From assembly GCF_035083965.1 (NCBI RefSeq), contig NC_089726.1:13211501-13275500 (forward strand): 64,000 nucleotides of DNA. Reading direction: 5' to 3'. The translations under genes were made by a program, and so were the position numbers. Under the pieces are notes generated by a model, which worked only from the letters and a program-made list of their open reading frames with translations, was not told where the DNA came from and made no database searches. The stretch is from Branchiostoma lanceolatum (lineage: Eukaryota > Chordata > Leptocardii > Amphioxiformes > Branchiostomatidae). Shown one piece after another: positions 1,126 to 43,871 of the stretch. Numbering within the stretch: position 1 is the stretch's first letter; each line of letters opens with the position of its first letter.

Positions 1126-1169
1126 AGCACCTTATGTACAAACACTGAAGAAATTGGTTAGTACTTGCA

Positions 1170-1247
1170 TAGCCTGGATGCCAGAACCCCAATTAAATAT
1201 CTATCGTGTGATAGATATTTTAGTTTGGGGGTCTGGCATCCAGGCTA
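1170..1247. mobile_element. 78-bp hairpin MITE with 9-bp target duplication
   Basis: The whole element is a near-perfect hairpin: it begins TAGCCTGGATGCCAGA and ends TCTGGCATCCAGGCTA, with arms running on through an AT-rich loop. It is flanked by a perfect 9-bp direct repeat GTACTTGCA (1161-1169 and 1248-1256), which is strong evidence of transposition. Four other elements in the window have related ends (3291-7198, 21177-21279, 36607-37612, 41926-42045). A 9-bp duplication would suit Mutator-like transposases, but no transposase is present to confirm this. Confidence 0.85.
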
Positions 1248-1499
1248 GTACTTGCAAGAAGTTCACCTTGTGTTCTTTTTACAGGGGGGGGGGGGGGGAG
1301 AAGTAATAGTTCAAGGATGGGCGGGCCAGTTTGTGGGGATATATCAGAGCCCCGCCCCCCAAGGAGCTTGTGAGCATCCCGAGGGCGTCTAAAGACTACA
1401 ACAGTTCCTCATGTCTACCTTCATGAATGGGCTTGTTTTTATTGCCAAGTTCCTTTATTTATTCGTTTCTTTCTTTATATTTTTGTTTGTTTATTCGTT

Positions 1500-1593
1500 A
1501 GGATGGATGCTTGGATGGATGGATGGATGGATGGATGGATTGATGGAAGGATGGATGGATGGATGGATGGATGGATGGATGGATGGATGGATG
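1500..1593. repeat. Tetranucleotide microsatellite (GGAT)n
   Basis: Tandem GGAT/ATGG units with a few interruptions. It creates an open frame of repeated DGWM residues which is an artefact of the repeat, not a gene. Confidence 0.9.
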
Positions 1594-1808
1594 GAGGCGG
1601 CTACGCTACAAATCATGGATTTTAGGGGAGGGCTTGGTCAAATGAAGAAATGATTTTATTTTCTCAGAGATCCGAACGGGAAAACACCCGTGTTAACCCT
1701 CGCTGCTACAGGACACGGCTAGATCCCAGTCCTACCTGTGCGCTGTAAGAGCCTTTTCAGGTCGAAACTGTGAAAATGGCGCAAACATCTGCATAAAAGC
1801 TTTCCCAA

Positions 1809-1985
1809 CACTGCACGAAATGGCCTCGGATCCTGACCACTTGCCGATGTAGGTAATGTAGGTAACTTTGAGTTGTTTTAGTACAATACGGCCCCCATAT
1901 CCGTCCGGATTCTTACGGATCTGAGGTTCCGGATCCCGTTTCTCCTGTCCGGATACGTCAGGATCCGAGGCCATTTCGTGCAGTG
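1809..1985. mobile_element. 177-bp TIR element with 29-bp perfect inverted ends
   Basis: Left arm 1809-1837 and right arm 1957-1985 are perfect reverse complements, starting CACTGCACGAAATGGCC. The trinucleotide CAA flanks both sides (1806-1808, 1986-1988), a possible 3-bp target duplication as in PIF/Harbinger elements, although 3 bp is weak evidence. Another copy of the same terminal motif lies at 14693-14711 in opsin intron 1. Confidence 0.75.
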
Positions 1986-3454
1986 CAAGTTCTTACTTTA
2001 ACCCGTCTTCTCCTGCTTTCCACCCCACTGGGTCATCGCCTGGAGCAGCCCTAACGCATCTAGTTCCCTGACGTCACACATGATTATGCTCACTGATGTC
2101 TTGCTCGCTTTATTGGACACTCATAGTGATACCGTCGCAGTGGTTGTGCAGGCAGCGGAAAGGCCCATCGCTTCGGGGAGATCGGTAAGTGTGAAAGATT
2201 TGTCTACAAACTGTTTATAGGAGTGGTGCGGTGTTGCAACAACCACGAGAGAGATATGATCTATTGTCATTAGATTTATGATATAATCATAGCGCGATTA
2301 CAGGGCAATACCTGAGCCCACGATGTGAAAAGGATACATGAGCAAAGTGTGAAGCGAATCAATGAGGTTTGCTTCCGGCTTGTTACACTGCCTTTGTTAC
2401 TGCCTAGTGTTATGATAAACAACGACATAAATGGAAACAGGTTTCCAGGAAATTGTTATTCATGGTAAAGAGGGCATCAAAGTTCAAACACCTTAGTTCG
2501 CACGGCAAACGTTATCATTATTTCACAGAGGCTTGTGTCCTGTGGACTCTTGTTTCACATTTCGCCAGTTCCATTTGAGATAAATCAGATCAGATGACAT
2601 GTATGGAGTTGGAAACAGCGCCATTGAAAGGCACACAGCTAATTGATTACATCAAACATGTTGCTTTTATGGCGGTGGGAATATGTAATTTGGTACTAAG
2701 CGCATTTTTTCAGAAATGTTAAAACATTGACCTACCTGCAGTACAGGGTTTTGCTTTATTTTGTATTGAAGTCATCTTTTGATAACGTTGTGCGCTATGA
2801 AATATGGCGAAAAATAACTGTGGACACACCGTGGCACCCTGCAGATACACAAACACGCACACACACACAGAAAGCAATACATCCGTTTTTACAGTGGCAC
2901 ACCAGGTCATGTCGTCACTATGGCGTATTGCTCTAAATGTTCTAATGTTAGTAGACTACAATCCGAAGTTATTTCAACAAGACACACTCTTTGTCATGTA
3001 CAGTGAAACCTGGACGACTAACCACCTGGCGGAGTCAAACCACCTCCAGTTATAAACCACATCACCTTTCCGTCCAGTCTTTCATAGCTACGAACCTCTG
3101 CTAACTAACTCAAGTAACAACCACTTTATGCAGTCCAAATGGGGAATCTATGCCCCAATCAAGTACCAACACTGACGACGATTGCTCCATTCACAAGGCA
3201 ATCAGACACAATGCACAATCAATGAAGTCCATTAGTCAGGATTGTGCAAAGCACAAATTGTGACAATGCGAATTTGGACATGGAAAAACTTAGCCTGGGT
3301 GCCAGACCACCGAGCTCCTAGCGCCAATCCCTCGGCCGGGGAAGCAACTTGCGCCGCTACCACAGTTAACACACGGCCCCATAATTACCTCTCACGCGGG
3401 GTAGAAATTGAGTTCGGCTGCTAATAGCGCCCGGGTGCGAACTCTATCCCTACG

Positions 3455-6400
3455 TACTAGAAGAAGAATTTTATTGCGAAGAAGAACAATTGTAGCTGGT
3501 ACAATGTATGGCAACTTACGTGCATGATAATTAAGCTATTGCTAATTGTTGACAGATATAGAGAACTGATCTAATCTATGACTAACAGTAAAATAGTCTA
3601 TAAAATAATGTACATGCTAACGCTGTAGAATAAAATATGTAATAATAATGTTGGTAACAGTATGCTGTGTCAGGAATGTATGATATTGTCTCGTTTTTGC
3701 ACAGAGTTATATACAAATTTGCCTACATAGCTGGATATATGAACAGGGCATGATAGTATCATATTAAATGTATCTGTCCTGGTAGGTGCGGATATTGTGT
3801 CGGACGTACATACCATAGATTGTAACAATTTTTGTCGGTCATCTGCATAGGTTGGACAGTCCATAATAAAGTGAAATTCATTCTCAATATCGTTATGGCA
3901 TGTCGGACACAGTCTCTCTTTGGCTGGCGTGTTAAAGTGTCGGCCCTTTTCAATTTGTAGGGAGTGGGCACTAATCCTCAGTCTCGTTATGCTATTTCTA
4001 ACAAATTTGCTTTGAATGGATGAAAGATAGTTTTCAAAACAGAATTGTTTTTTAATTTTGCAGTAAGTGCTCAGTTTGTTCATGCTCTTTATTTCTTGTC
4101 TCCAGCCCGAGAGAAACGTGTCTTTCAAACGATTCTTGAAGATGACTCCAAAATGGTTGGCACTAACAGCAGGATTAAGCCAAACATTTTGGAAGCCATG
4201 TCTATATAGCATGTCTTGTACATGGACAGCCCAGTCTTGTTGTAGCTCAACAGAAGTATCATATGCTTTCTTTTCAAGTCTGTCATTCGGCAGATTATGT
4301 AATCTGAGCCAATATTTTATCAATTGTGTCTGTGAATCGATATATAGTGGGAATACTCCTAGTTCGCCCCTGACTGCGGCGTTAACAGAACTTTTGGGTA
4401 CGCCAAGTGAGATTTTGCAATAGTTCAAGAGTACAAACTCTAAGTCGGGGTTTTCGTAGGATATTGTTGGCTGCTCAAGTGTTATATTATTTTCCTTCAG
4501 CAAGTTTGATTGATAAATAATATTCAGCTTGTCGCTGTATTTCTTAAAACGAACAAGAACGGGGCAGGTAGGGGAAGGGTCTGATTTTTTGACGATACGG
4601 GAAGCTCTAATGATGTGAGTTAATGATGTGATGTTTTCTGGTCCCAATATCGTATTGAGGGTCTTAGCTATTGATACTCTGCTAGTTTCATTTTCATATT
4701 CTTTTATTCCATGGAAAATAAGGTCTCTACCTTGTGCATTTGTTCCGAGAACCTCACTGCAGTACAATAAAATCGGTTTGATGCAGCTGTTAAAAAGGTC
4801 AAGGGCGAGCGAAATAGATGGGTTAAAATTTGTTGACTGCAGAGATTTTAATTTGAATGAAGCACGAAGAGCTTTAAGCCGTAGCTGTTTGGTGGCACGG
4901 TTAAATGAACCTGAGGGGGTGAAATCAACTCCTAGGTATGTGTAGGAGGTTGTGATGTCAATTTTGCGGCCTTGTAGAGTATACGGAGAATGTTGGCTGT
5001 TAGTTCGTCCAATATCATAACTTTAGTTTTATTTTCATTTATTGATAGTTTCCAGATAGAGCAAAATTGATCAAGTGTATTTAGACATTCTTTTAGGCCT
5101 TCCTCCGATTTTGACAGGAGAACGAGATCATCCGCCCAGAATAGACTGCTAATAGGTGTGTCTTTTAGAATTAGAGGGTCTGAGGATCGTGAATTTAAGA
5201 TGTTTGGGAGATCATTTAAATACAAGTTGAAGAGAAGAGGACTAAGATTGCAACCTTGACGTACCCCACAGGTTGATTGGAAGAAGGATGATAGGCCATT
5301 CGGTGTTTTTACGCAATATCTAACGTTAGAGTATATGGATTTTATAATTTTGAAGAAGTTCCCCCCTATCCCCGATGACAGCAGTTTGTAGAATAAACCA
5401 TAACGCCAAACAGAATCAAATGCTTTACGGAAGTCTATGAAGCAGGCATATAGTTTACCTGCAGGCTTGGAGATTTGTTGGTCAATTAGTGTTTTAAGCA
5501 CGAAGACATTGTCACTCGTACGGAAGTTTTTTCTGAATCCGGATTGAAAGGGGGACAATAAGTTTTCTCTCTCGAGGTGATGTTGCAGTCGTTTGTTTAA
5601 AATGAAAGTGAATAATTTACCTACACAACTGGATATGGCAATGCCTCTGTAATTTGTTGGGTTTGAGGGTTCACCACTTTTATATATAGGAACTAATGTA
5701 CTCTGGCTCCATTGTTGTGGGAACGTTCCAGATTTCAGTAGGATATTAAACATTTTCTTCAATGGTTGGTTGAGTTGGGGGGAACTATATTTCATCATTT
5801 CGTTAATAATTGAATCCGTTCCGCATGATTTATTACCTTTTAGATTACATAGTCCCTCCTGAATTTCTTCTATTGTAATATCAAAATCAAGTGGATCATC
5901 TGTTTGACATTCTAAAGATGCAACAATATTGTCTGTATACTCCTGTTCTCTTTTGTCCATGGTTATGTTATTATTAATAGTCTTAAAGTGGTTTAACCAT
6001 TCCTCAGTTGATATAGATTCCTCTGTATCATCTTTGTTTCCATTTTCTAAATTTCTTAACTTGTTCATTTCTCTCCAAAATGATTTTGGATCTTTCTTTG
6101 ATAATTTAGAAATGTTTAACATTTTCTTTCCAGAATAGTATTTCTTTGTCTTCTTAATCAGTCTTTTGTATTCTTTTATTTTACAAATATATGTTTGTCT
6201 TTTGTCTTGTCGCCGCCAAGGATATTTCCTTATTTCAGCGGCAAGAAGTTTGATTTTTGACTTAAGATCGCGGCATTGCTGGTCATACCATGGCTTATTA
6301 GTAGGTTTATTCTTTCGTTTTGAGACTCTAATTGATTTTAATGATATGTCAGCAGCCATCTTGATTATATGGTTAAACTCCTCGACAACTTTTCCAGTTT

Positions 6401-7152
6401 GATTGTTTGTGTATTGTTCCAACATGAACTGTTTAATCTTATTTTGAATTTGAGGAAGTTGAAGCGCATCCTGGAACTTTTCTCGAGAATTGTCGTCCCA
6501 AATGTATTTCTTTGGATGAGGATTGAGTTTTTCTTTATTGATATTTCTGAAAGTGGGATGGTTCGTTTTAAGCGAGACGGAGATCTGACAGTGGTCTGAT
6601 AGCCAGGTAGGGTTATGTACTTTGAAGTATTGCACTGATGAGAAGAGGTGTAGACTAGTAATGCAATAGTCTACGGTACTTGTGCCATTGTACTTTATGC
6701 ATGTACTTCTTCCTGGGAGGTCCCCAATCGTTCTCCCATTTACTATCATCATGTTAGCGGCCGAGCATAAATCAACTAATTCCCTACCATACTTATTTTT
6801 TATATTGTCTGTATTTATTCTAGGTTCTATCGTTATTTCTGTTGAGTTTTCGTCAACGCCATCGAAGAGTTGTTCAGGTAAATTTGCAGTTCTTGCGTTG
6901 AGGTCGCCAAGAAGAAGAATGTGCCCTAAGTTGTTGAATTTTGCAATGTCCTCCATTAGATCTTCAAATATTGTGTTCTTTTTTGTAATGAATATGGGTG
7001 AATTTTCAGGGGGTAGGTATAAACATCCTAAAATAATATCTGCCTCTAGTCCAAAAAAGGTCTTGTCCAATTTGCACCAGATGATGTCAGGATTGTTACT
7101 TTTAAGTTTGGTAATTCCTTTAGCAATAGTTTGTTTAAAGAGGAGACCCAAA
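3455..7152 (-). mobile_element. 5'-truncated non-LTR retrotransposon (LINE)
   Basis: The minus strand encodes, in order, part of an APE-type endonuclease, a reverse transcriptase and a C-terminal zinc-knuckle region, then a 3' end with AATAAA inside a TTCTTC-rich tail near 3460-3480. The 5' boundary near 7152 falls inside the endonuclease: the first catalytic block and any ORF1 are absent, which is typical 5' truncation. The clade looks CR1/L2/Jockey-like but I cannot settle it by eye. The boundaries are approximate. Confidence 0.8.
3670..7151 (-). pseudogene. LINE ORF2: endonuclease-reverse transcriptase, truncated and frameshifted
   Basis: A retrotransposon polyprotein that would nick target DNA and copy its own RNA. 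Visible motifs, in order: endonuclease LLGDLNAR and the SDH of LSDHCQISV; reverse transcriptase ACFIDFRKAFDSVW, GVRQGCNLSPLLFNLYLNDL and the catalytic FWADDLVLL; and a C-terminal CPTCHNDIENEFHFIMDC zinc knuckle. The frame starting at 7151 runs to 4932, but the recognisable protein leaves it near 5010 by a single-base frameshift. It then continues through ITTSYTYLGVDF and LRLKALRASFKLKS to the stop at 3670. Apart from this break and the missing N-terminus the copy is well preserved, so it is relatively young. Confidence 0.85.
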
Positions 7153-7198
7153 AGGGGTTATCGCATCGCATCGCGCGAAAGGTCTGGTATCCAGGCTA

Positions 7199-9702
7199 AG
7201 AAAAACTGGAATCACTTTTTGGCTGTTTTTTTTAACAATCTACCTAAAGACCACATTAGGCTGTTAAACAAACACGGCTTTGATGGTTGAACAATTGTGG
7301 ATAGATCTATCTACATAACGATATGGCTTTTTATTAAACTGTGGGCTTCTCTTGCAGATATGTTTCCGTGAACATTGATCCGCCGGGTTTCATTATTCCG
7401 CCACTTTGAAAAAAATAAAACGGTGGGTTTAAGAGATCTCTAGTGCAGCTGCCCCAGGTACAGTTTAGATATACAGGAGTGCATTACACCGAGGGACGTT
7501 GGGTTTCAGATCTGTTTTGACGTATCTTTTCAGGGTGGCGAAATTGAACGCTGGTGGAATTATGTTAGTAGTCTGTTTTCCGGCCATTGAACCAATTTTT
7601 CTGGAGCAACCACTCCTCTTCACCAACCATATTTCATCAATCCTTTGAGTGGGGACCAGGTTTAACTGTACTTAGGATCAAATTTTAGATATATCTAGAT
7701 ATATTTTCCCCTTTGAATGCGTCAGGACGTGTTAATACGGGGGCGATCGTGTTTTCGACCACGTGATGTACTGATCAAAGCTAGTGAACTACTAGTATTT
7801 GAAATGATCAAGTGTCTAAATCAATCATTGGCTTAGCTTGTTTTCGTTGCCGTGTCCGTGTGTCTAAGACACACAACAGATACTGTTGAATTTCTGAATA
7901 CATGTGAAACGAAAGCCAAATACAACAAATGCAATGTATTGTCAAACTAACGGTTTGTTCCTTAGTATTTTCACTAACAAATGCACTCTACTTGGAGATA
8001 ACTCGCAACAAGTGCTCCTTAAATGATTCACGTGAACGATTCAGGAGCCTTTCTTCGCCTCAAAAGCGACCAACGTGATTTTCTAAATGCGCCGTGACCA
8101 TATTCGTGACCAGCGTAGCGCAGGACAGGTCAATGACCGCGAAGTGGGGATATTCTTGGGACAATATAGTAACGTATATGTCTTATGTCTCAAATTTCAG
8201 CCATTCTGTCATAGCCGCCTGTTGAAAATCTTCCGCTTCTATTTGGATGCCATGTGACTGCGCCCCATCCTATAAAGTTAGATAGAGGTAACTGAAGATT
8301 CACAACTAAGCAAACTGCTTACGTGCTCCGATTCAATCTAAATCTCGACAAAGCACCAGCTAGGGACGGTGCAACACATTTGCCATTAGCATTCACCTGC
8401 TGCAAATGTCGTATTCAAGTATTCAGGTCGCCTAATGGTGCTTCGCCGTGATCTATTTTCTACTTCTAAGCTCAATGACCGCCCGATTGATCCCCAGCTT
8501 TCTTCTGACCAGAACTGCATCAAATCTGCTGGACACAGCTGACCCCACATTAGCAAATGCAGTAAAATAATCACTTAAATAAACAATTATATATATATGA
8601 GGAACATCATAACGCTCTAACTAGTACTATAGTAAAAGCTACAGACAAACTAATACTTAATAAATCGGCAAAAACTGTGCCTATGGAATGTTCTTCTGTA
8701 AACACACATGTGGAAGTGAGTGTGTGGCCAACCGTATAGATAACATGTTTGATATCCGCCGCACGAGACAAGCTGTCCTTTGAATAGTTCTATTCATGGA
8801 TACAATTTTACACAGACTTTAATGAGCAGCTGATGTGTCTTGGACTATGTTTCAGTGGTACTAATTGGAACCCAGAAAGTGTAAGATTCTCGTTTTTCAC
8901 ATAGAACTATGAAGATTTGAACTGGTTATCATCAAATACTTTCTTTATGAATAGAGAGTCGTAAACAATCATCGGTTTTGTATGTACAAGATTATGACTT
9001 AGGTGTGTCAATACCAGGCCGGCAGTAATATAACCAGCTGACCCAAAAATGCAAGGCTGTGTATTACTCTTAAGGGCGGGTTGCTTGATTTTCCGATACG
9101 TAAGGACAACGAATCCGTCTGAAACCACTTGTCATAGAACACGCTGTAAAGACTGCGTTTATATCTGATCCTCCTACTTCTTTCTTAGAGATCTTTTGAT
9201 AACGATAAGAACTAAATGTCGTAACTTTCGCCAAGAAGGTTCTGTTTTCGGTAGCGTTTGGATGTATGTTTGGATGTACGGTATGTGGTTTAGCAGCATA
9301 ACTCAAGAAGCTATGGATGGGTTGAAATGAAACTTGGTATGTGGTGAGGTCCTGCCCCGTCGAAGAAATGATAAGATTTTGATATCTCATATTCTGGACA
9401 TGCTATGGTCGTGATTTTTGAGTCGTAGCTCAAGGAACCGAGAGTCGAAGTGGTGTAGCTTTGGCCCCCAGGCGGCTTTTATGAAAGACCTTGAGGACCT
9501 CATTTGCATAATTAATGAGGAAATTCCTGAATAGCTTCCTGAAGAAGGAGATTTGCAACATATGTGATTTGGAAAGAGGAGATGATGAATTCATATAAAT
9601 TATGCTAATATGCGACTTCTTTGCATATCCATAATGTAATATATATATATTCTTCTTCTTTTCATCCTGCCGGACGTTCTGTTCAACGTCGATGTATATA
9701 AT
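7199..9702. other. Intergenic region, no gene recognised
   Basis: AT-rich sequence with only short, domain-free open frames. At about 9285-9560 there is a copy of a dispersed repeat marked by AACTCAAGAAGC and GACCTCATTTGCATAATTAA, which is also found at 13.6-14.4 kb, 33.1-33.5 kb and 47.3-47.5 kb. A short AT run precedes 9650. Confidence 0.5.
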
Positions 9703-10806
9703 GGGGGCGCCCTAACATCGCACGCGCCCTAACACCGCACGGATTTTTTACTGACCTTATTTTGCATAAGTACGCCGTGTTTGTGACCACCGACTATGCT
9801 GATAAGAAAGGTAAATAAACCAAGTTCATGCACATAGCTGTCATTTGCATTCAAAGCATATGTGTACATATTTATTTCTTGTTTTGTCGAAAAATAGTAT
9901 TTAGACGATAATGCTGGTAGCGCTGAGTAGACTGAGTAGAGGGTCACTGCATAGCTAGACGTCCCGGCGCCTAAATATACGACCTGTGCCAAGCTGATAC
10001 ACAACTATCATTCACGTACGAAATATAACTTCATAAAACACTAAAAATTTGGGTCTTAAAGTTTTGTTGAGTAGAAAAGCGACCAACGTAAACATCGGTG
10101 TCGTATAGTGACGTTGTTTTCCCGCCTTTTTTATGGCCGTGATGGTGGCGGGGCAATTCAACGCACAGCGAGGTCCAGAGATTTGGTTCGCTCTAACATG
10201 CGATTAGTACCGTATATGAAAAGGAAACTGAATACAGAGATGGCAAAGACATTAGTCAATAACTAGACGGAGTATTATTGATGTAAGCGGTGTCGTTTTT
10301 TCGTAATTATTTTGTCAGTCGGGCCGCATGCAATACGTACGTCAGGCCGCGCACGCAGTGCGTAGTAGCATATTTCCCGTGAAAACATGAGCTGGGATGC
10401 GCTAGATATAGCCCTTCTCACAGGACGTGAGAAGTGTACACAGTCAAAATTTTCCAGTCAAAAGAAAGCTAGAATATAACAGACTGCAAGCTTCATTTAC
10501 ATTTTCTTAACTCCATCGCCAACTTACGAAGAGAGCAATGTTACAAAACGTGCCAAGTTAGGCACACTATCTGGCGTAGCAGTAAATCAGAACGTACATT
10601 CGCGAAAACATCTCACAGCGTTTGCCGCTTGTAACGCGGAGCGTGAAGGGCTCATGAACAGTATTAATACATTTCTTATCGAAGTATATTCTTTAGATGA
10701 ATGTGTTCAAAATTCATTCATCAAAACCTGACCACTCTCTGGCAACCAGCGATGGAGCGCCGTGAGTTCGAGCGCGTAAAAAACGTGCGATGTTAGGGCA
10801 GTCCCC
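9703..10806. mobile_element. 1.1-kb nonautonomous TIR element
   Basis: The left end reads GGGGGCGCCCTAACATCGCA and the right end is the reverse complement of GGGGACTGCCCTAACATCGC, inverted repeats of about 22 bp. Flanks are GTATATAAT on the left and GTATATATA on the right, similar over 9 bp but low-complexity, so the target duplication is only suggestive. The left end carries a second near-copy of the GCGCCCTAAC motif immediately inside. No transposase frame is visible. Confidence 0.6.
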
Positions 10807-19459: not shown

Positions 19460-19538
<79 letters not shown>

Positions 19539-19575: not shown

Positions 19576-19627
<52 letters not shown>

Positions 19628-22600
19628 CTGTGCCTGTGTGTCTGTGTGTCTGTGTTTGTGTGTGTGTGTGTGTATACGTGTGTGCGTGTGTCTGTCTGTG
19701 TGTGTGTGTGTCTGTGTGTGCCTGTATGTGCCTGTGCGTGTCTGTATGTGTGTGCCTGTGTTTATGTGTGTATGTGTTTGTCTGTGTCTGTAAACAGCAT
19801 ATCCAGAGAAGTATGTGGATGCATCTTAATGATATTTCGTATGTTGCTAGGTGGTGGCAAAATAAAGAAATTATTATATCATAATTTGACATCTCGTGTT
19901 CTGGACATATTTATGGTCATGATTTTTCTTATTTTGACCTTTTTTTAATATACATTTCTACAGGTATCTCTATATTTGGCTATCCGTTCTGCACGGCGTC
20001 TGGGTACGCTGGGTACTGGTTGTTCGGGGACGCGGTGTGCCAGCTGTACGGCTTCATGTGTTATACTCTGTCCATGAACAGTCTAAACACCCTGGTCGTC
20101 ATAGCCGGATTCAGATACATCTCACTCTGCCACCCACAGTATGGTAAATCTTCTTATTCTTTGTAGAATTTCACAAACATTTTGTAAGAAGCTCCTACGA
20201 CCGATGACTTTGTAGAAATATAAAGCCGGTCCTCGTTATTGAAACAGAATGGCCACACGGTGGGCCGCCTCTGCTTACTGGCCTTTCAATTAATCAATGG
20301 CATGATTTTTCTTTGAAAAAGGATGAAAGTCAGCGTTCCATGATGCTTCAATACCTATCTCAGCCGGCTATTACACGGGTTGTGTAATGTAACATTACTC
20401 ACAAGGAAAGCAAATTAGAGATAGAGTATTGCCCGGGGAAAAAATTAAATGGCAGTTTTGTTCAAATTTGGAAACAGGAAATACGATGGTAGGTGGTAGA
20501 ACAGTGCGTCACATTTGGTTTCCTGACCATCAACAGCACGCAAGGGGAAGAAACGAGAGTTGAAGGTTTAGTTCTGTTAGGCAGGGCTTTCAGTGGGGGG
20601 TTATTTTGTGCTGCTTTTTACAGCCTTTTCTACGATTGTATTTCTCTTGTAGTGGCCATTTCTTTCATTTTCCTTGCGAATGATAGACGTTGCGGCCACT
20701 ATTAGGAAAGAGAATCGTAGAAAAAACAAAATAACCCCCGATGAAAGATCTGCCCGGAGAGTGGTTATGCCGGCTGATCAATTCAGACATAGACATTCTG
20801 AAAACAATATGTAGCTGCGCCTGTTGCAAGTTAAGTGTTGTTTATTGGAGAAACGCTGAAATGTAGCTGTCATTTTTTGTCATGAGAACACAGGGTGTCC
20901 AACGGTGTTTTTGCGGCCAGGATCGCCCTCTGGCTTTGAAGTGTACAAAGATCATTTGCTACTCTACAGCCTATCTGAATTCGATTGTCAGATGAAAAGA
21001 AAGATAGATGGTTCGGTTCGGAAGACTTCAAAGGCTGTTACAGTCACGTAAGACGTTCTTATCCATATCCACGCAACAAAGGGAATACCCGCATCCGTTT
21101 CGTATTTAATGGAACACATTTTTGAGCACGTGTCTTGCTACAGTCCTTGATAACGCAGTCCCTTGCTATATTTTACTATCCTGGAGTCCAGCTTCTTAGC
21201 TTTTCTTAGCTTCTCGCTCCTTGGCGGGGAGCGGAGCTTGGGTAGCGGACTAAAGCTAAGAAGGCTGGACTCCAGGCTAATATTTTACACACCGATGGTG
21301 GTAATCAAAAGTGTTCAAGTTATCTAAAATAAAGAAACGCATTTTTTTTTACATCATGACTTACTCATGATCAGATACGAAACGAGTCGTGGCTTCCCGC
21401 CTGAATTGAACAAACATGGATTTCGTTACCAAGCAACCGTTGGTCATGAGAGATATGTTATGAGCAGTTGATTAGAAGGCACAGGTGGTGATCAAAACAG
21501 GACAATGAACACTACATGAGACGTGTGATGTGAGGTCACTCACGACGTGTACTTCCTCTGCTCGCGTATCTCATCATAGCTCCAAAAACGTACTTTGTTA
21601 CGACAACGTGCATCCGGTATACTGGAAGCTCCTATATAATATCATACGGACGTTCGTGATTCCTATAACGGACCAATGAATCAATTTTGTTGCATGCGTT
21701 AAACACCAATAATTATGCACAAATCTATAACTTTGACATCAGATTAGTATTATGCACTAGTATAACTACCTGCGGTCTTGTCGTTACACAGCCTACAGGT
21801 TGACACACCGTGTGACGGCGTACTCGCTGATCGGGCTGTGGTTCTACGGCCTGCTGTGGACCGTACCACCGTTGGTAGGGTGGAGCAGCTACACGTATGA
21901 GATATTCGGTAAGGGCAGTTGCCGTATTTCTTCTGGAGTTTTACGGGAAGTTCTAAACTGTTTTCCTCACTTTTAGAAAATCTACCTCCCCAGTCCACCT
22001 CTAAGTAAAATATATTTTGTTTTCAGGTACGTCTTGTAGCATCAAGTGGACGGTGGAGAATACATCAGAGATGGTGTACGTGGTGGGAAGCTGTCTCTTC
22101 TGTTACCTTCTCCACCTGCTCCTCTTGGCTTTCTTCTACTACAAGATCGCAAAGCGGATGCGTAAGCTAAACCTGCGCGGTCAACACACCGTTCCGGCAG
22201 CCAGAGGTAGACGGGACTTCGTCACCAGTAGCCGGATGAAGTCGGAAAGCAGGGCCACTCTGGTTAGACCTGGCGTCTAACGCTTTCTTAAAGTATATAG
22301 ACGCGAAGTTACGTGTGGTGAAAGTATTATGATACATGTTTCCTGTTTCATACATTATTAGTTGTATAATGTGAAATCAGCAAGGTCAATAGTTTATACC
22401 AAGCAGCTATACTAGGTGCCTTGTGGTATACGTCGATTTCCGTTAATCTTTGGAAAGTGTGTATACTGTATACGATATATAGATGATAAGTGCATTGGTA
22501 ACTTTGTCCTAGATGTGCTTCCTGATGGTAATACTGTTCGTGGTGGCGTGGACTCCTTACACCGTCTCGTCCTTCTGGTCTATACTGGTGCAGAAGATCC

Positions 22601-31679: not shown

Positions 31680-32580
31680 ATCCTTAGCATTGACTGTAAG
31701 GGTATGATGTAGTTTCTGCATAGATTATGCAAACGAGGTCTGCATTAGCATAATTTATGGTCAGGTGTGTCAGATAGACCAACTTGCTTGGGATGTAGGG
31801 GTGAGGTGTGAAGATCTAGACCAACTAATGGCGGACCGTGATGCCTGGCATTAGCATAATTTATGGCCAGGTGTATTCACCTTTCCTTAAGGTACCTACA
31901 AGTCAAATATGACATTCGTAGCTTTTACGGTAAGGAAAATTCAAGTTTATGCATAAATTATGCAAATGAGGCCCTCATTAGCATAATTTATGGCCAGGTT
32001 TTCTGACCTTTCCTAATGGTACCTACATCTCAGATATGACATCCATTTCTTTTACAGTAAGGAAAATACAAGTTTATGCATAAATTATGCAAATGAGGTC
32101 CTCATTAGCATAATTCATGGCCAGGTGTGTTCACCTTTCCTAAAGGTACCTACATGTAAAAGATGACATCCGCAGCCTTTACGGTAAGGGAAATGCAAGT
32201 TTATGCATAAATTATACAAACGAGGTCCTCATTAGCATAATTTATTGCCAGGTGTGTTCACCTTTCCTAAAGGTACCTACATCTTAAAGATGACATCCGC
32301 AGCTTTCACGGAAAGGGAAATACAAGTTTATGCATAAATTATGCAAATGAGGTCCTCATTAGCATAATTTATGGCCAGGTGTGTTCACCTTTCCTAAAGG
32401 TACCTACATCTCAAAGATGACATCCGCAGCTTTTACGGTAAGGGAAATACAAGTTTATGCATAGATTATGCAAATGGTCCTCATTAGCATAATTTATTGT
32501 CAGGTGTATTCACCTTTCCTATAGGTACCTACATCTCAAATATAACATCCGTAGCATGTATTGTAAGGTACATAGTCTAT
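31680..32580. repeat. Tandem array of 127-bp units (minisatellite)
   Basis: GGTACCTAC recurs at 31891, 32018, 32145, 32272, 32399 and 32524, exactly 127 bp apart except the last (125). About seven units in all, the first ones degenerate. Each unit holds a near-perfect dyad centred on GAGGTCCTC, with arms ATAAATTATGCAAAT and ATTAGCATAATTTAT, including the octamer ATGCAAAT. It lies just upstream of METTL27 copy A. It is not a CRISPR array: repeats are contiguous, with no spacers. Confidence 0.9.
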
Positions 32581-33540: not shown

Positions 33541-33688
33541 TCGAAGAGATGCTGTTTCAATCCTAGTCAAGCCTTGACACGTAACCAGGAATTGGCCGAT
33601 TTGGGTCTTCAACGGTTACGTTAACGTTGTGACAATTGAGTAAAAGAAGAAAACACATTGTGAGAGCGCAAACCTCTGTCGAGTCAAG

Positions 33689-33694
33689 TTTATT
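33689..33694 (-). terminator. Polyadenylation signal for METTL27-like copy B
   Basis: AATAAA on the minus strand 44 nt after the copy B stop codon. Confidence 0.6.
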
Positions 33695-33737
33695 AGACAT
33701 TTTCCTTTCCTGAGCGATATATTGTACATGATATCTG

Positions 33738-35334
33738 TCATGACGTCACCCTGCAGACGAAAAATGTTCCCTCCCAGTCCCTGAAGTAACCGGGGCGGGT
33801 GGTTCTGTCGACTATTGAGAGAAGAGCGCGTTCTTGAAGGTCCTGTAGTTTAGCCACCAGGGCCGCTCCAACGTCTGACTGCAGAGTTTCAGAACCAGTG
33901 CCTACGATAATGTGTCCATCTGGAATATACACAAAAGGACATCTTGTTTTTCCTCAGAACAAAAAAAAAAAACAGTACAGTCGTTGATGAATTATTATCC
34001 AAAGTTGAAAGTGCATGTTGTAGGTCGATGTGGAGCGCAATTTGCATTCCTGTCATTCACAAGAAAGGTTATGTCGAATCTCTAAGATCTTACCTGGTTT
34101 TGTGATCTGAACCAGATCGTCCAGACATTCACAGGGAAGATGTGTCCCATTCTGAGTGAAGGCACCAACCAGTAGAACAGCGTCGTACGTATCTGGGAAA
34201 AGTCGTGTGTCACCATGTGATGGATAACTTATTCACGAAAATCTAGCAGTTGGTAATATGGAGCAAGACGGAGATATATATGGTGCAACACAAACCACAG
34301 CCAAACTATTGTACATGTACCCGTGTGGAAAATGAATCTACCCTGTGCCCTGTTCTTAAAACTACTAAGTACTATGTAGCTTTGGGCTCCTTCGCTACCA
34401 GAGTTCTTAAACAGTCACGACGTGGCGTCATTCCTTCCGGTATGCCCGCTCCTAGGAGGCACTACACTCTAAGATGCGACGATCCAGTACCGTGAAATCA
34501 AGTATCAAAGATGGAGTCTCACGAGAACTCAAGACGTTACACATCGGAAAGAGATCCTCTGAGGGAAGGGGTAGAAGGGACACAGCTGAGGACAGTCACG
34601 TGACTTTTGTCAACAGTGTCTGTGTACAGTGAATAACTGTCTAATAGGGAATGTACTATTCAGACTTTTACATTCTAGTATCTTACCCATCTCTGACACT
34701 TACTAGGCGCTACAGGTAGCTGTCCTGTGCCCAGTTTGGCCTCTATCAGCCTCTGGTAGACATGTTTGTTCTCTGCAACCTTCAGCATGTCCGGGTTAGC
34801 GTCCAGACCGTCTGCGTTTGTGTACCCGAGCTTCTGCAACTGTTGTACAACATCACGATTAGCAACAACCATTGCAAGAAAGCAAACAGGGACAACAAAC
34901 AAAATTTAGTTTTACTTTGCATTCCAGAAAGACAATGGAGTGTTAAGCTAATGTTACCTCAGATCCCACCATGCCGGTCCCGGCCGGCACGTCCAACACC
35001 CGGACACTGCTGGGGTTGACCCCGCCGAGCACCTGGTGCATCAGGGCAACAATCTGCCGCGGGCCGTTGTATCCCATGTCGGCCATGTCCTGTAGGAACA
35101 TTTCCATAAGCTACGGCTTTTTGACAAGCATTATCTCATCAACTAAAGCACAGAAGTGTGTTTTTGTTATATCCTTAACTTATAGTTTCAAGATCTTTCA
35201 AGGACCAAACCTACCTCTTCATATTTTGCAGCCCATGTTGAGTACACTGCTTGGCTGCCAGCATAATCGACAGGAACTGACGCTGCCTTGTCAAATGGGT
35301 TGTTTGCATTTTCATTCGGCATGCTTCGGTCCAT
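33738..35334 (-). CDS. METTL27: METTL27-like SAM-dependent methyltransferase, copy B
   Basis: Predicted 222-aa paralogue of copy A. Minus-strand exons: 35215-35334, 34958-35089, 34704-34839, 34094-34192, 33738-33919 (669 nt), with the same intron phases (0, 0, 1, 1) and the same lengths for exons 2-4. Motif I is VLDVPAGTGMVG, with Pro in place of the first Ala of copy A; the strand-4 motif is NTYDAVLLVGAF; the C-terminus is DWEGTFFVCRVTS. Exon 3 encodes the same 45 residues as copy A and differs by only about three bases, while exons 1, 4 and 5 have clearly diverged. Introns are short (about 120-250 bp), unlike copy A. Substrate unknown. The start is the first ATG of exon 1 (MDRSMPNEN). Confidence 0.85.
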
Positions 35335-36606
35335 AATGGAACTGTCCAGTCGTCAGTATTGCTTAAATCGTGAAGGCACAAAGGTTCGAAGCTCTTGGAA
35401 TGTTTGATTTAGCTTAACTTCCGGGTCAGACACATACACATGTAGACCGCGGTTCAACCTTCGTGGCCGTCGCTTGCACATCGTGTCAAATCCGATAGGT
35501 GTCACTTTAAACAGTAAGCTATATCAAAGAAGAGCCAACTGACATAAACAACACATCAGAAGTAGAAAGAGTCGAAGAGATCGGAAAATTGTTTTATATT
35601 CGCGCAAGATATTGAATAAAAGTAAATGGGCCAATGGAGCCATTTTAATGGCCAAAACACTGCTCTGGCAAGGAGCAAGCAAATTATTTCTCTAAACGTA
35701 TTGTATACAATTACAAGCTAATGCTTGTGGGAACGAAAAATATAACATAAAAACAACAAAAGACAGAAAACGCAAAAGAAAGTTGCCATATACTGCGTAT
35801 TTTCTTGATATGCATTTTTCGTTTTCGCAAACAGCCCGACCGGGCCCCGGATTGGAAATGGGACCGAAGCATTAGGGTGTCATCCGTTAAAGTAATTTAG
35901 TACTATTAAAAGCTAAATAAATCATCACGACGCACCCTTAGTCTGTACAATTCACGACTTGAATCACGTTTTATGAAAGAAGCAAACAACACATTTTTTT
36001 GTAGTAAAATATCACACACAACCTTTATAAGAATGAATGAACATGCAAGCCTAAAATACAAAGCAAATATGACTCGACTATTTACAGGTACCCATACTTC
36101 ATTGAATCAGGCTGTGTACAATTAATTGTAGGTAATTCAAACTAAAAAAAAACTGCATGCCACAATTCAATATAACAATATTATCACATGTACAAACGTG
36201 TCGTCGGTTAACGATTGGTACTTATTGGCTAGGAGTAATGATCTGGAATAATATTACTCTCTAGAGGCAAGTCTAATCTTGTACTACATTTATATAGATG
36301 ATAAGTACACCAGTCAAGTTGGTGATATTTATAGTTTCTGTGGTTTAGCTTTTACACAGTCTGGCATGATGTATAAAAACCCGTCGTCAAATGTTAAGAG
36401 AGACGATGAAAATAAAATAACTCTTCTCATATGTGAATCTGTACTGGTTTAGTTTTATCTATTTGCAAAGCTAACATGATATCTGTACAATGTTCCAGGC
36501 TAGTGGTAAATGCCATATTTCTACTATTAGCTGCTCTGCCCGACACGACAGAACACTTAGGTCGATCATTTCTGTGCCACAGTTCCTCATCTTTGCCCAA
36601 AAACCA
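35335..36606. other. Intergenic region, no gene recognised
   Basis: AT-rich sequence between METTL27 copy B and the TIR element. At 35825-35880 it contains an inverted relative of the GCTTCGGTCCC repeat of 12378-12590. The short open frames show no domains. Confidence 0.45.
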
Positions 36607-37612
36607 TAGTCTCCGATGCAGACTCCTCCCGGCTGTTTTCTTTTTAGCGAAGCCTTAGGGGCGAGCTTAATAGTATATTTTACGCCCGATTTGCAAGAAT
36701 TCCCAGAATTCCACAGGAATTTCAGGAATCCGTCCGGCCAACTCTGTGGATGCCCTCCTGTCACTTGATACCTCATTAGCACGTCTGGCATCTAGGCACT
36801 CAGCAGTCGATGACAGATGACCTACTTTTACGTGGTGTCAGATTTCGTACTGTCCGGAGTGTGTCAGGGAGTTCACCGGATCTAGTATTCTAGCTTTGAA
36901 AAGGGTTTGCACATCCCAGTTGATCTATTATCACAAAAACGTGCTGAACATCATGCCTCCCACCAAAAAACCTCTGTAAAAACCAAAACTTGAGGAGATC
37001 CAAGCATATAAAGAAAGGCAAAGTTTTAAACGGAACGATAAATAACTTGGGTTACCGCTTGGGCAGTCTACACTGAACGCCTTACGGGGAGGGGTGCGGT
37101 GTCGGAAAAACAACAGTAGCTCCTCGAAAACACATTCTACAGAGCTAGAATAACAACCAAAACGATCATAGGAGCCCCAGCAAACCGATTTTCTAAACTT
37201 CCGGCCTAGTTTCTCACTCCACCTATCCAACAATGCCAGAGAAAAAAGACACTACAACGGGAGTGTACTCCGGCCTTTCCACATATGCTAGGAACTCCTC
37301 GAGTTACATGGTGCCTTTCTATATCTGCTTGGCGGATGCCTTTCGGATTTCTTAGTGCGTTTTGCGCAATATTATGGCAGAACTAAGATCTAGAGTGCTA
37401 CGTTGGTACTTTCCTTACAGTGAAGTAAGATCAATCCAGACACCTTCGCTAAGGCAATGATTTTTAATTGCCACACTTATTCAAGTTACAATTTTTATAC
37501 TATTACTTTTTTTTCTTATTGCTGGCCAGGAATAAGAAGAAAAAAGATGTAATAGTATAAAAACTGTAACTTGAAAAAGAAAACAGCCGGGAGGAGTCTG
37601 CATCGGAGGCTA
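36607..37612. mobile_element. 1.0-kb TIR element with perfect 9-bp target duplication
   Basis: The left end begins TAGTCTCCGATGCAGACTCC and the right end is the reverse complement of TAGCCTCCGATGCAGACTCC; the inverted repeats extend about 38 bp through CTCCCGGCTGTTTTC. A perfect 9-bp direct repeat CAAAAACCA lies outside both ends (36598-36606, 37613-37621). A second inverted repeat sits inside the right end (CAAGTTACAATTTTTATACT near 37482 and its partner near 37575). No transposase frame. It is a long relative of the TAGCC/9-bp group. Confidence 0.85.
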
Positions 37613-37880
37613 CAAAAACCACAGCTGCCGTATTGGTCCATTCTTGAACATTGCCGTGATGCTCACATATACTAGTACCCTGGTGTTTGAAGCACCTCGG
37701 CGTTTTTATAATAATATTAGTGTGCATATGCATGTGCTTATTGGTAAACAGTACATACAAATCATATACATGCTACGGGAGTCCTTGGTTTTCTAGACAT
37801 AGTTGGAAGTTTAATGTATTGTGATAGTTGCGAGTCTTGTGTTTTTTGTTGATTACCTAGCTATAGGCCTATTCAGATAG

Positions 37881-37886
37881 TTTATT
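37881..37886 (-). terminator. Candidate polyadenylation signal for the fibrinogen-domain gene
   Basis: AATAAA on the minus strand 19 nt after the stop codon. This is unusually close but canonical; other downstream signals may be used. Confidence 0.4.
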
Positions 37887-37904
37887 TGTTTTCTAGTTTA
37901 TATC

Positions 37905-40900
37905 TTATGGAAGCTCTAAGTCCCTTTTGAAGTCTCTCGGTCTGATCTTCATGGATACCGACTTCAGAGAAACAACTTTCTTCCATTTGTACCAAACTAC
38001 ACCCTCCAACCACCCACAACAGTCGTCTAACCCGCAGCAGGTCTGTCCGTGGAACTCTGATCGCCAGTCCTCCCGATTCCGACAGTTTCCCAGGTACTTC
38101 CCGTTGATGAAGGCGCCTCCGCATTCGAAACTGTCCATGCTGCAGCTGCCGAACACCGGCGTCCAGCGGGGCGTGCAGCCGCAGTGCCACCAGCCGTCGC
38201 TTCGCAGCCCGGCGCAGTTATGGTAGTCCTTCTCGTCGTTGTCCTGGTCAACAGTGGAGAACTTGGCGCCGTTGTGCCCCTGGAAACCGTCCCCTGCCGT
38301 CCCGCTGTAGTTCCCAATCGACAGCTGGTAGTAGGTCCACTCACCTCCCACTTTGAAGACGTCGTACCGCGCCCAGGCACTATTGTCTTCCCAATCTTCC
38401 ATGTCGATGCGCAAGGTATAGTTTCTCTGGTTCGTCAAGAAGTACATGTTGTCCAACCCGAGCCAGTATTCGCCCCGAATCTTCCCGAAGCGGCGTTTGT
38501 ACTGGTGCCAGGTTCTGTTGAAGAGGACGGAGCCGTCCAGACGCCGCTGGATGACTGTCCAGCCTCCTCCGTCCGTGGTCATGTCGCAGAAGACGTCCAT
38601 CGGACGGCGCTCCTTCCCCAGTCGGGCTGTGATGGAGTTGATGCCGTCCGATCGCTGGCCGTTGTAGTACAGGTCGGCACAGTCCATAGCATACTGGGCC
38701 TGGGGCTGATAGTCTGCGGGAATAGAAATAGCGAACGTTAACTACAGTGGAAGAAGACCGTTCTCCAGTTTCTTCATTTTATATCAAGAAACATTTTCAT
38801 GTTCCTGTCATGCGTAAAAACACATATAAAACAGCAGCAACTGCATGGTATGAACCAAGTTGCTTGAAAAGCTATTACAAAGGTTGTAAAAACTAACGTA
38901 CTTTCTGTTGTCGTTGATAGTTTGGGCATTGTGGTGACCTTAACGGGTGTAGGTCTAGTTGTGGGCTCCACATCTTGAGGGCCCGGAGTTAGTGGCTGTT
39001 CCGCAGTGCCAGTGTCACCCTCTGCGCCAGACTCGTCCTGCTGGACGCCTTCTTTCCCCTGGGTCGACAGGTGGTTGTTAGGCCGACTGGTCCCGGTAGG
39101 GGGAGTAACCGGTGTGTCACCAATGCTGTTCGATTCTGTGTCCGAGGATGCCGTGTTCGCATCTTCACACTGGCATCCGTTGAACATTCTGTATAGTTTG
39201 GAAACGTGCTCTGGGGATAGATGGATGCGATAGAAGTGTTAAAGTTGCGTCTGCACCAAATTCAAGAAACCATTCACCAATTCATCATGCATATTTTGTT
39301 TTATTCTAATGTCGTCAGAACCACTCATTGACCGGAAAATCAAGTGACTACTTTTTCGAGCCATTTATTTGGCGTCGACATAGAATAAGATAGTGTTCTT
39401 AATAGCCCGCTGCACCTTACCTTCCAGTTTGTCCAGTTTCCGCTGCTGCTGTGCGATCGTGGACTTCAGCGCAGCGTTCTCGTCCTGTAAAACTGTCAAT
39501 CAAAAAGTATACGAAGATTACTTCTCTCATGAGTTAACGTTGGATAACAATACATGACGATATGATGGTTTCTTTGTTCAAACTCTTCAGTCTGAGTGAA
39601 CTTCAACATTTAGCACATTTGCTCCTTGTCGTCATCTCTTCGTGTGGTGTTCGAGTAAACAACACCAATCAAAACCTGTTCTAGTCACAGCACACGCTAA
39701 TACCTGACCTTTCATCTAATGCCAAATATTCCATATCGCCCACTCATGACTTAGATCTGTGCAACCTAGCCTAAGTATAGGGATCAAATCTGCTTTCTTT
39801 CTCATATCTACTCCGCGCCATTTCCTTAAACCTATACTTTACCAAACATTTCCCCTCAGGAGGTGGAGTTTAGAAATGAAAAAGATGCTTGAAAAACAAC
39901 ACAGTGACATTGCTAAGGTCGAGGTCTTTTATTGTTTTTTTTTAGAAGATGCATCAGATTTTCATTCGTCAACTCTAGAGGAATACGTTTTCATATGTAA
40001 GAGCTGTTCCTTTTTTCAAGATATCTAAGGGAGAAAAGGCCTTGAGCATTCGCAATTTAAAATATATACAATAAAATTTGTGATTAAAGGCCCCAAACCC
40101 ACCCCTCGCGCCTAACATTGTACTTTGCGCTCCAGGGCCCTATACTCCCAGCTATGTAAAAAAACGGCACCAGCTGCAGGCACAAGACATTAACTTTCAC
40201 CTGGTTGTCTTGAACAGTATCTGTACCTGTAGGCGGTGGTTTAGATGTTGTACACCTGTCCCCGAGCTAGGCTATACGCACCTAGGCGTGTGTGTCACAA
40301 GAGGCGTGGGAAAAACTGGCCCCAGATAAACGCAGCGACCCGAAAACTCGTTCGAAGGACCCTCAGAACTCCGGCTGAGTAGACATTGAAAGATGAAACT
40401 TAGTATAGTAACTTTATTGCTACAATAAAAAAGGACTAAAGGCCGGGTCGTCGTGTCATTCTGTCACTGCCGAACCAACGATGTCATTGTTACTGATGCG
40501 AAAAATTACAGATGTCAATCATGACAGTTTACAATATACTTTACTGTAAATGTTTGACCTCCGTCCACTTGTATGTCAACTGTTGGCGCCTGGCGAAATG
40601 TTAGTTAAGGAAGCCATAAACACCGTCTATTGTTACCGGACATGCCGAGATCATCTCATAAGATGTGGTCTGACTACTGTGGCGCCTTGGCTAGCGTTCT
40701 GGTCATTTCTTGTTTTCGTGCCTCGGTGTTTTCAAAACACGACGCACTGTTACCACCAGTCACAGAAATTTAGGGCGCATGTCATTTGAGACTACACGTG
40801 GTACGGTTGGGGGAGACAAGCTCTCCTACGTTTCCATGGAAACAAACAAACCAAGGAAAATACAAACAACAAGCAAGCAAAGAAACAGCGCTCGTATGAT

Positions 40901-43871
40901 CTAAAGTAGCGTTGGATGGCAGAAACGCCAACCCTTGACGAACTAGATACATGACCAGCAATCAGCTACCGATGCATGTCTACAAACCGCATGTGAAGAC
41001 TTGTCAGTATACGCCGTGACTTAAGGCACGTCTTGACTTGATTCATGAGTTGTGATATGTCTTCAGTTCCTATTCTGTGATTTTATGCATGTCGCGTAGA
41101 AATTTAAGGACTACAAATCGACTTTTGCCCCCTACAAGTCACACGAACAAGGACACACAATCTAAGCTTCTTCGAACAACTCAAGACACGTGGCCATGGG
41201 TCGTGTACTGCTAAGGCACAATCAAATCCCAGTGTAGCCTAGCTACTCAATTCGTGTCACTTGTCATACCTCAAGTTCCTGTCATGTGAGTGACATACTA
41301 GTGCACTCAAGTCCCTAACCTGGGGCGATTCCAACCTTCCGAGACGTCCAGGGGTCGTCAATTCTTTTAGCATTTCTTAGCGCTACCTTTGTCCTTGACC
41401 TTGAGGACCTGTCACAACCATTTTAGACTCGCTGACTTTAAAACACACATACAGTGTAGTACTAATCTATATCAGGTCCAGCTTGATTTTTCATTTTCCT
41501 GACAGAAAGAAAATAACCACTATCTTTTTCTTCGACAGAACACTTTAGAAACGAACATCTACTGTTTTCTGGGGGTAGTGGGTGTAGGTTGGTGTATACA
41601 CTGTCGAGGAAAAATTACTACACTATCAAAAGTTGATTTTAGAATCTTACTAGCTTATAATACATTCAGCTCATGAGCTCGATCGGGATGTTTAAGATAC
41701 GAACATCTGGGATTGTTGTCCCGGACCCGGTCCGTGAGAAGTGGGAAGGTCTATATAATGACAATGGTTACTGCGCCAACATGTACTTCCGACATGCTGT
41801 GATTATGTGCTCAGTATGGAAGGGTTTAGGAGTGGTCTGACCACATTGTAAGAAGATGTTACTTGCATTGAGCTGGGTTATCCACGGTGATATATACGGG
41901 TTAGGCAGGATAAGCACGCATAGACTAGCCCGGGTGCCGTCCTAGTTAGTTTACATTTACAAGGCAACTTGGACCCGGGGCTCCTATACTCACCTCTCCA
42001 ACTTATTATAAGCCACAATAAGCTAACTAGGCTTCACCCAGGCTAGGTGGAGGAAACAATTATATCATCGCTTGTTAGTCAGAATATCAGAAAAATCCCC
42101 GAGCTAGAATCTTGTTTTCGTTGTGTTCTTAAATTATTCGTCACATTGACCCCGTCGCCGATAGTATATGTGTTGTGAATATCATGTTTATCAGTTGATG
42201 CGATGACTGCTGCTAGAAGGGTTATGATTGTCTTTTATTGAAAAAAGAAGAACTCGAGTTTTGACTGTCTTCCTATTAGGGCACTCTTTTGTATTGGTTA
42301 CCCGGTTAGACAGCCGAAATAAAGAAGGTTAAAAAGACAAAATCACAGCATGAAAGGGGGGCCGTCTACACCCCTAGCTCCAACCTTAAGTTAAGTGTTA
42401 CCGGAGGGGAATTCTTATGGTTTTCCACGATAATGTGCAGTCGGCACGCTTGTTTGCGTGTTTCCAGCGATGTTTTTACTCGATTCACCCATGCGTAAAT
42501 GCGATTGGCTCAGGGCGCCCCTACGTGGGTGAGGTTAGAAGGGCAGGTAGACCTGAGTCGCATATCTTCTGCAGTGCTACTATGTCCTGCTGTGAATTGG
42601 CCAAGTCACCTGGCTTCAAATCATTAGGGCCTCCTTAAATAGCCCATTAACGCTCTGTGATCTATGGTGATTGATTGCATTTTCTACGTCTTACAAAAAG
42701 ACGGAATAAACCCCGGCAATCTAAAAAAATGTTTCAAAAAAATATCAGCTCTACCACGTCAAATTCGGTCAAACCGCGTGTCACTTTGGACAAGCGTGCT
42801 ACACGATCTTTTTATACTGAACACCGGTGCACCATATTTCTATGTAACGTTGGAACCGTTTAGAGGTAATCACCAGTAAAGAAGCGGTGTCATAAACTTG
42901 CAATTATGTGATTGTCGTAAATACAGCCTCGGGGTTTTGTATCTCTTTGTTTAATGTGTCCTTGTCAATATTCGCCCCTCTACCACAACACGTACACGAT
43001 GTTTGAAGTTTTCGAAACGACATTAAAAAAGAGCGAGGTACATGAACATGTCTATATCCCCCACAATGGCTACAGCCCCAAACTAATCACTGCTCTGACT
43101 GATAGTCGTTAACGTACCTGCCACAGCGCCTTCCACCTGCGCGTTGGTGACGACGTTCCCGCCCGTGGAAGTGCCGTCTGCCCGGGGTACTCCGTCTGAG
43201 CTGTCCTGTACGTGCTGGTGAAACTGCACGATGAGACCGTCGATAGCTGCCTCCAACATGACCAGCCTGGCGTACAGGTCTCCCGACTCGCCGTCAGACC
43301 CCCCTCCCCCACCGCCCGCCTCTCTCATATAGACGTCCAAATCGTTGATCCTCTTGTCCTGAGCGTCACACCTGGCCTGAAACCGGCTGGCAAACTCTTC
43401 TTGTTTCGTCTCCAGTCCTTCCAGGTAACCGTCAACGCGGGTGGTTTGACGCTGCTGCGCCTCCCACCTCTCGTTGGCGAGGTTAGTTTGTTCCTGGTTG
43501 CCTTTCTCCAGCCCAGCTAGAGAGCGCCAAATCTGGTCGTGAACTTGCTGCAGTTTGACCAGAGTTTCCCTCAAGCTGCTGACGTCGTCGCCGTGGAGGT
43601 TGAGGAGGTCCTCCACCTCCTGCATCCGTTCCCTCTGCTCGCCGATGCCGGCTCGGAGCGCCGCGACGTGCTGCAGCATTTCGCCCTCCATGCCCGCCAA
43701 CCTCCGCTCCAGTCGCCGCACGCGTCGGTTCCGGTCCTTACGATTCTTCTTACCGCCCCTTTCTTTCTCTTTCTCCCTCTCCTTCTTCGTCTCCCCTTCT
43801 GCTGCCTGTGCCGCACACGTCAAAGCTGTCAGGGCGACAACAGCCACGACAAACACACGATAGCTGACCAT
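37905..43871 (-). CDS. Secreted coiled-coil protein with fibrinogen C-terminal domain
   Basis: Predicted ficolin/angiopoietin-like extracellular lectin of about 638 aa. Minus-strand exons: 43137-43871 (or ending at 43118), 39421-39484, 38902-39210, 37905-38713. The N-terminus has a signal peptide (MVSYRVFVVAVVALTALTCA), a basic KKEREKEKERGGKK stretch and a long heptad coiled coil with a GGGGGGSDG spacer. A second coiled coil follows (QQQRKLDKLEEHVSKLY), then a Thr/Pro-rich linker and the FReD (DCADLYYNGQ, DGGGWTVIQRR, GEYWLGLDN, Ca-site DQDNDEKD). Between WWHCGC and NGKYLG the domain has a cysteine-rich insertion, and CCGLDDCCGW follows, both unusual for the family. The start is the ATG at 43871; the upstream extension begins with GTG only. 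The exon 1 donor is uncertain because the stronger site is out of phase with the next exon. Confidence 0.8.
41926..42045. mobile_element. 120-bp TAGCC-ended inverted-repeat element
   Basis: The left end reads TAGCCCGGGTG, leading to CTAGTTAG; the right end is the reverse complement of TAGCCTGGGTG, again leading to CTAGTTAG. The ends resemble the 3291/7198 pair. I see no 9-bp target duplication, so the insertion is old or one end has been lost. It lies in the large first intron of the fibrinogen-domain gene. Confidence 0.6.

Follow-up and report, generated by a model that had tools for sequence, protein, structure and literature searches.

Five elements with short inverted ends of the form TAGCC, or a close variant of it, lie in the window, a 64,000-nucleotide stretch of Branchiostoma lanceolatum DNA, and four of them are flanked by 9-bp direct repeats that are exact or nearly so. 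Taken as a group, these ends and repeats are real and stand well above chance. We consider it probable that the elements are non-autonomous DNA transposons with terminal inverted repeats (TIRs), or MITEs, that two of them (E1 and E2) represent one family, and that E2 has been enlarged by a LINE in its interior (Table 1). In kind, the group looks ordinary.

Table 1. Positions of the TAGCC-ended elements, their parts and their flanking repeats in the window.
Feature	Position	Strand	Description
E1	1170..1247	.	78-bp palindromic MITE, ends TAGCCTGGATGCCAGA; DNA fold z -12.6
E1 left direct repeat	1161..1169	.	9 bp, GTACTTGCA
E1 right direct repeat	1248..1256	.	9 bp, GTACTTGCA
E2, whole element	3291-7198		3.9 kb, 18-bp ends
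E2 left direct repeat	3282..3290	.	GGAAAAACT
E2 left end	3291..3308	+	TAGCCTGGGTGCCAGACC; 0 mismatches to E1/E2 end motif
E2 left non-LINE part	3309..3460	.	Inner limit inferred by eye
LINE within E2	3461..7157	-	5'-truncated; outer limits approximate
E2 right end	7181..7198	-	TAGCCTGGATACCAGACC (minus-strand reading); 1 mismatch to E1/E2 end motif
E2 right direct repeat	7199..7207	.	AGAAAAACT; 8/9 match to left copy
E3	21177..21279	.	103-bp near-palindromic MITE, ends TATCCTGGAGTCCAG / TAGCCTGGAGTCCAG; z -6.8
E3 left direct repeat	21168..21176	.	9 bp, ATATTTTAC
E3 right direct repeat	21280..21288	.	9 bp, ATATTTTAC
E4	36607..37612	.	1,006 bp, 39-bp TIRs (97%)
E4 foldback	37476-37579		Adjoins right TIR
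E4 left direct repeat	36598..36606	.	9 bp, CAAAAACCA
E4 right direct repeat	37613..37621	.	9 bp, CAAAAACCA
E5	41926..42045	.	120 bp, related ends, imperfect palindrome, without target duplication; z -2.65

A first-pass annotation of this DNA had described five such elements, with 9-bp duplications around E1 to E4 and ends only at E5. All five are present, and each has the inverted ends that are expected of a TIR DNA transposon such as a MITE: 16-17 of the first 18 bases match in E1 to E4 (17, 16, 16 and 17, respectively) and 12 match in E5. The fixed-length target duplication that is also expected of a MITE is exact at 9 bp in three of the five elements (E1, E3 and E4). The duplication described for E2 is imperfect, with 8 of 9 bases matching, and E5 does have ends without a duplication, since its flanks match at just 3 of 9 bases and the best repeat obtained when both flanks are moved as far as 6 bases reaches only 6 of 9. 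The E1 repeat is readable as 11 bp if a terminal TA is counted, the left copy being preceded by TA as well. Despite this longer reading of E1, we take the repeat length as 9 bp because E3 and E4 fix it.

The ends differ in how far their resemblance extends. With up to 3 mismatches permitted, the 18-bp motif TAGCCTGGRTGCCAGACC occurs at only four sites in the window, which correspond to both ends of E1 and both ends of E2. Judged by sequence, E1 and E2 are members of the same family, an assignment made because this 18-bp end is common to both. The ends of E3 have TAGCCTGG in common with E1 and E2, in the form TATCCTGG at the left end of E3, and all three elements carry, by sequence, a CTGG-nnn-CCAG inverted repeat just inside their ends. 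This inverted repeat, which folds as such in 5 of the 6 ends (the left end of E2 folds otherwise), could be a common recognition site. E4 has TAG(C/T)CT in common with the group in addition to its own 39-bp TIR, and E5 has TAGCC, its right end corresponding to the first 11 bases of the E2 left end.

Overall, E3, E4 and E5 have about 5 to 11 end bases in common with E1/E2. They may be of the same family as E1/E2, or may constitute related or separate families; for these three we claim only that the style of end is common to them, with the same stagger for E3 and E4. The resemblance might even be a superfamily hallmark only, with E1/E2, E3, E4 and E5 as separate families that have their own transposases and that have in common the terminal bases and a 9-bp stagger. 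The divergence of the E3, E4 and E5 ends from those of E1/E2, and from each other, past the first few bases is in keeping with this idea, as is the private TIR of E4, but the occurrence of TAGCCTGG across E1, E2 and E3 and the possible recognition site inside their ends argue against it. We put its chances slightly short of even, and it is compatible with most of the explanation that we prefer.

The first-pass annotation also held that the interiors are unlike even though the ends are alike. Comparison between elements indeed found no similarity among the interiors of E1 to E5, and the sole cross-match beyond the ends is between an E1 end and a 15-base stretch inside E4. Positions 36782-36799 inside E4, read on the minus strand, resemble the E1/E2 end over 18 bp with 4 mismatches, which possibly reflects an older end or chance.

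To gauge the flanking repeats against chance, each was compared with all position pairs of the same spacing in the window, the element itself being counted. Pairs that match at least as well number 3 of 63,904 for E1, 14 of 60,074 for E2, 66 of 63,879 for E3 and 2 of 62,976 for E4; we think that the E3 figure is inflated by simple repeats, such as those at 19.5 kb. When the right flank is slid by 1 to 8 bases in either direction, the best matches are 4, 5, 6 and 5 of 9 bases for E1, E2, E3 and E4. The low count of equally good pairs for E2 bears on whether this element could be a chance pairing, in which the ends of two separate E1-type MITEs stand around an unrelated LINE. Its repeat is A-rich as well as imperfect and its arms are unlike inside the 18-bp ends, as might be seen in such a pairing, but with so few equally good pairs and only four such ends in the window we regard this explanation as highly improbable.

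The same question was approached through pairs of ends. Ends similar to TAGCCTGG, with up to 2 mismatches per end and 40-8000 bp apart, form 4,623 pairs. Exact 9-bp repeats flank two of these pairs, which are E1 and E3, while exact repeats of 4 to 6 bp flank 26 and exact repeats of 7, 8 or 10-15 bp flank none. Of 300 control runs with random anchors, 281 were without any exact 9-bp pair and 19 had a single one; two were never obtained. Permitting one mismatch in the repeat adds E2 to E1 and E3. E4 is captured only if one of its ends may carry 3 mismatches and the other 2. With ends at 3 mismatches there are five exact 9-bp pairs, including two without TAGCC ends (37651-40207 and 55912-58611), and four exact 8-bp pairs also appear. 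Given these additional pairs, it is the 39-bp TIR that supports E4, rather than the number of pairs.

A blind scan of the whole window used no end motif, and instead called for TIRs that match at 11 or more of 14 positions and agree in their first two bases, at a spacing of up to 6 kb and with low-complexity repeats left out. At a repeat length of 9 bp the scan recovers E1, E3 and E4, together with two rows that fall within a tandem palindrome array near 32 kb, and at 8 bp and 10 bp it yields no rows. Seven rows are obtained at 7 bp, five of them in the same array and none TAGCC-ended. Among control pairings of three kinds, three rows turned up at 7 bp and a single one at 8 bp, with none at 9 or 10 bp. 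E2 is missing from the scan because its imperfect repeat falls below the scan rule. A weight-matrix search for more ends showed no excess, with three non-training matches above a score of 12 compared with a Markov mean of 2.9. None of 13 orphan ends tested has a partner for which 8 of 9 repeat bases match and the agreement of the ends exceeds 6 of 14 bases; the orphan end at 36502 has a 9/9 repeat with its partner, but only 2 of 14 end bases match.

The palindromic character of the small elements is evident from their folding as DNA. Among 200 shuffles, none folds as well as E1 or as E3, and two do as well as E5, whose fold is weaker. Four end stretches of 70-74 nt from E2 and E4 fold in no unusual manner (z of +1.03, -1.29, +0.73 and -0.25), and no unusual structure is seen for the left arm of E2 (3291-3465; z +1.54). 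No Pfam match was found in E4 for the 9 frames scanned (8 wholly inside the element and 1 across its left end) of the 13 stop-free frames that overlap it and span at least 50 residues.

Most of E2 consists of a minus-strand LINE, that is, a non-LTR retrotransposon with an apurinic-type endonuclease. A 741-residue open frame (7157-4935) encodes a partial endonuclease and a reverse transcriptase, which match Exo_endo_phos_2 (PF14529; 9.3e-10) and RVT_1 (PF00078; 4.5e-38), both above the Pfam cut-off when the frame is run from 7151. These assignments rule out the long frame as a transposase. The two domains expected of a LINE are therefore present in the interior. In the E2 LINE, however, the GDLN motif comes after only 83 residues, compared with about 144 in the human LINE-1 protein, which indicates that the endonuclease start is missing. 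Ten of the 11 sequences retrieved at E <= 0.01 by a search of solved structures with this frame are R2, LINE-1 and other reverse transcriptase proteins (3.7e-25 to 3.6e-16), and the eleventh is a maturase (E 0.0012). Only the group II intron reverse transcriptase model of NCBIfam responds to the E2 LINE, at 65 bits versus a cut-off of 300.

A second minus-strand frame (5022-3673), in a different reading frame from the first, has no Pfam match and is read as the probable C-terminal part of the LINE protein; the change of frame falls between 5022 and 4935. Thus, E2 resembles a LINE in its reverse transcriptase and endonuclease, but differs in that the copy is 5'-truncated, frameshifted and broken. 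TIRs and 9-bp repeats, moreover, are not LINE features.

A search for LINE-type direct repeats inside E2 (7-15 bp, 0-2 mismatches) found none marking an insertion, and returned only four overlapping matches of 8 and 9 bases within the LINE, with one mismatch each. We only infer that the LINE is a nested insertion, because no insertion-marking duplication is present inside E2. Nonetheless, a LINE nested in a MITE would be a simpler explanation for the size of E2 than a transposase that moves 3.9 kb. Alternatively, gap filling or template switching might have captured a LINE piece between the TIRs, after which the whole would have moved as a unit and so acquired the 9-bp duplication around E2. 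The lack of an internal LINE-type duplication is in line with such a capture, and so are the two non-LINE arms, which have no inverted match past the end region. However, a 5' truncation within the endonuclease is the kind of trace expected of an incomplete target-primed insertion, and some LINE copies are without clear duplications. Only one copy of the arrangement is seen. The available text of PMC8277862 establishes that sequence captured between TIRs is known in animals, but reserves the term Pack-TIR for content other than transposable elements. On balance, we consider capture of the LINE piece unlikely. Far less likely still is a mixed class I/II element, with a LINE body and DNA-transposon ends, that is spread as a unit by a transposase with 9-bp duplications.

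The proposal in the first-pass annotation that one transposase may be moving very different cargo holds only in part. For E1 and E2, a single transposase is plausible given their 18-bp end; for E3 to E5, where the agreement amounts to about 5 to 11 bases, it is unproven. The cargo part of the proposal is weakened, as the 3.9-kb case is a 5'-truncated LINE inside TIRs, most plausibly a nested insertion, and E1 and E3 are palindromic miniatures.

Under the explanation that we prefer, a transposase whose gene lies elsewhere in the genome would recognize ends starting with TAG(C/T)C. As the anatomy suggests, each element would have been moved and inserted at a 9-bp staggered break, and repair of the break would have produced the 9-bp duplications. 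For E2, the probable order is that a MITE of about 200 bp inserted first and that a LINE copy later entered it by target-primed insertion. The LINE protein would not be the mover of the group. All five elements presumably belong to one superfamily.

No transposase was detected with Pfam in 27 of the 111 stop-free window frames of 85 or more residues (some scanned in part), or in 7 further, shorter frames. The window is animal-like by its domains, with RING/NHL, fibrinogen C and AAA helicase matches above the curated Pfam cut-offs and pieces of rhodopsin-type receptors below them. Other repeats are also present. A 523-bp element at 120-642, with 47-nt inverted repeats (89%) and both ends starting with TTAAAGGAGTCC, looks like a TTAA-duplicating DNA transposon. 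A 177-bp element at 1809-1985 has perfect 29-nt inverted repeats that start with CACTGCACGAAATGG and possible CAA flanks; its CACTG ends are reminiscent of the CACTA/EnSpm group. The boundaries of these two elements (TTAA, and CACTG with possible CAA) differ from those of the TAGCC group. Perfect 31-nt inverted repeats (GGAAATGGATTACTTAGCC...), 76 nt apart, form a MITE-like structure without a clear duplication at 14799-14936. A tandem array at 31849-32555 consists of 5.6 copies of a 127-bp unit that contains the palindrome CATAAATTATGCAAATGAGG..., and related pieces occur at 14.1-14.3, 33.3-33.5 and 47.4-47.5 kb. Finally, a 152-bp direct duplication (30360-30511 and 34696-34847) is 96% identical over copies 4.3 kb apart.

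Searches of other collections gave no relatives. The 18-bp end occurs in one viral contig, inside a 710-residue frame and with no partner end seen, and is taken there as chance. Six stretches of viral contigs fit the pattern of the LINE protein, none of which encodes a relative. Paired ends number zero in GTDB and zero in viral contigs, the E4 TIR is likewise absent from viral contigs, and Rfam yields no match at gathering cut-offs. Among the matches listed from open-licence papers, there is no description of these elements, and the end strings appear only as the 8-letter end and as no longer string. The available portion of PMC5802833 describes amphioxus elements, with nothing comparable to this group.

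Four marked members of a TIR group with 9-bp duplications are thus available in the window, and discovery of an autonomous TAGCC-ended partner would place the small palindromic elements in a superfamily. MULEs are described in passages of PMC6446971 as having 8-11 bp target duplications and TIRs of 14-500 bp, ranges that include the 9-bp duplications and the 18- and 39-bp TIRs found here; the same passages give 9 bp as the duplication length for Rehavkus and some other groups, and an excerpt of PMC3627910 describes MuDR-like elements with 9-bp duplications. In contrast, the ends here start with TAG or TAT, and so depart from the G/C in the first three bases that the accessible section of PMC13359780 gives for most arthropod MULE ends, which is a tendency of MULEs and not a definition. 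The window frames scanned also differ from a MULE in having no transposase. By sequence, then, a Mutator-like assignment would fit the 9-bp length well and the TAG ends poorly, and we assign no superfamily.

The hAT and P superfamilies likewise combine TIRs with short target duplications. However, available text gives 8 bp for hAT (PMC2874221) and 7- to 8-bp for P/Galileo (PMC4168063), where Galileo is a P-type element with long Foldback-like TIRs, versus 9 bp here. We reject hAT-type duplications on the basis of the empty blind scan at 8 bp. The P-type length finds no counterpart either, as the scan has no rows at 8 bp and, at 7 bp, has five array rows and two without TAGCC ends. The nearest precedent that we found for the cargo idea is the animal Pack-TIRs, as portrayed in part of PMC8277862. 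Similar to these elements, E2 holds foreign sequence between TIRs and has a target duplication, but Pack-TIRs are characterized by captured sequence that has a parental copy elsewhere and is not from a transposable element, whereas E2 is a single copy whose content is itself a LINE and may well be nested. Apparent cargo can thus be a retrotransposon sitting inside the element.
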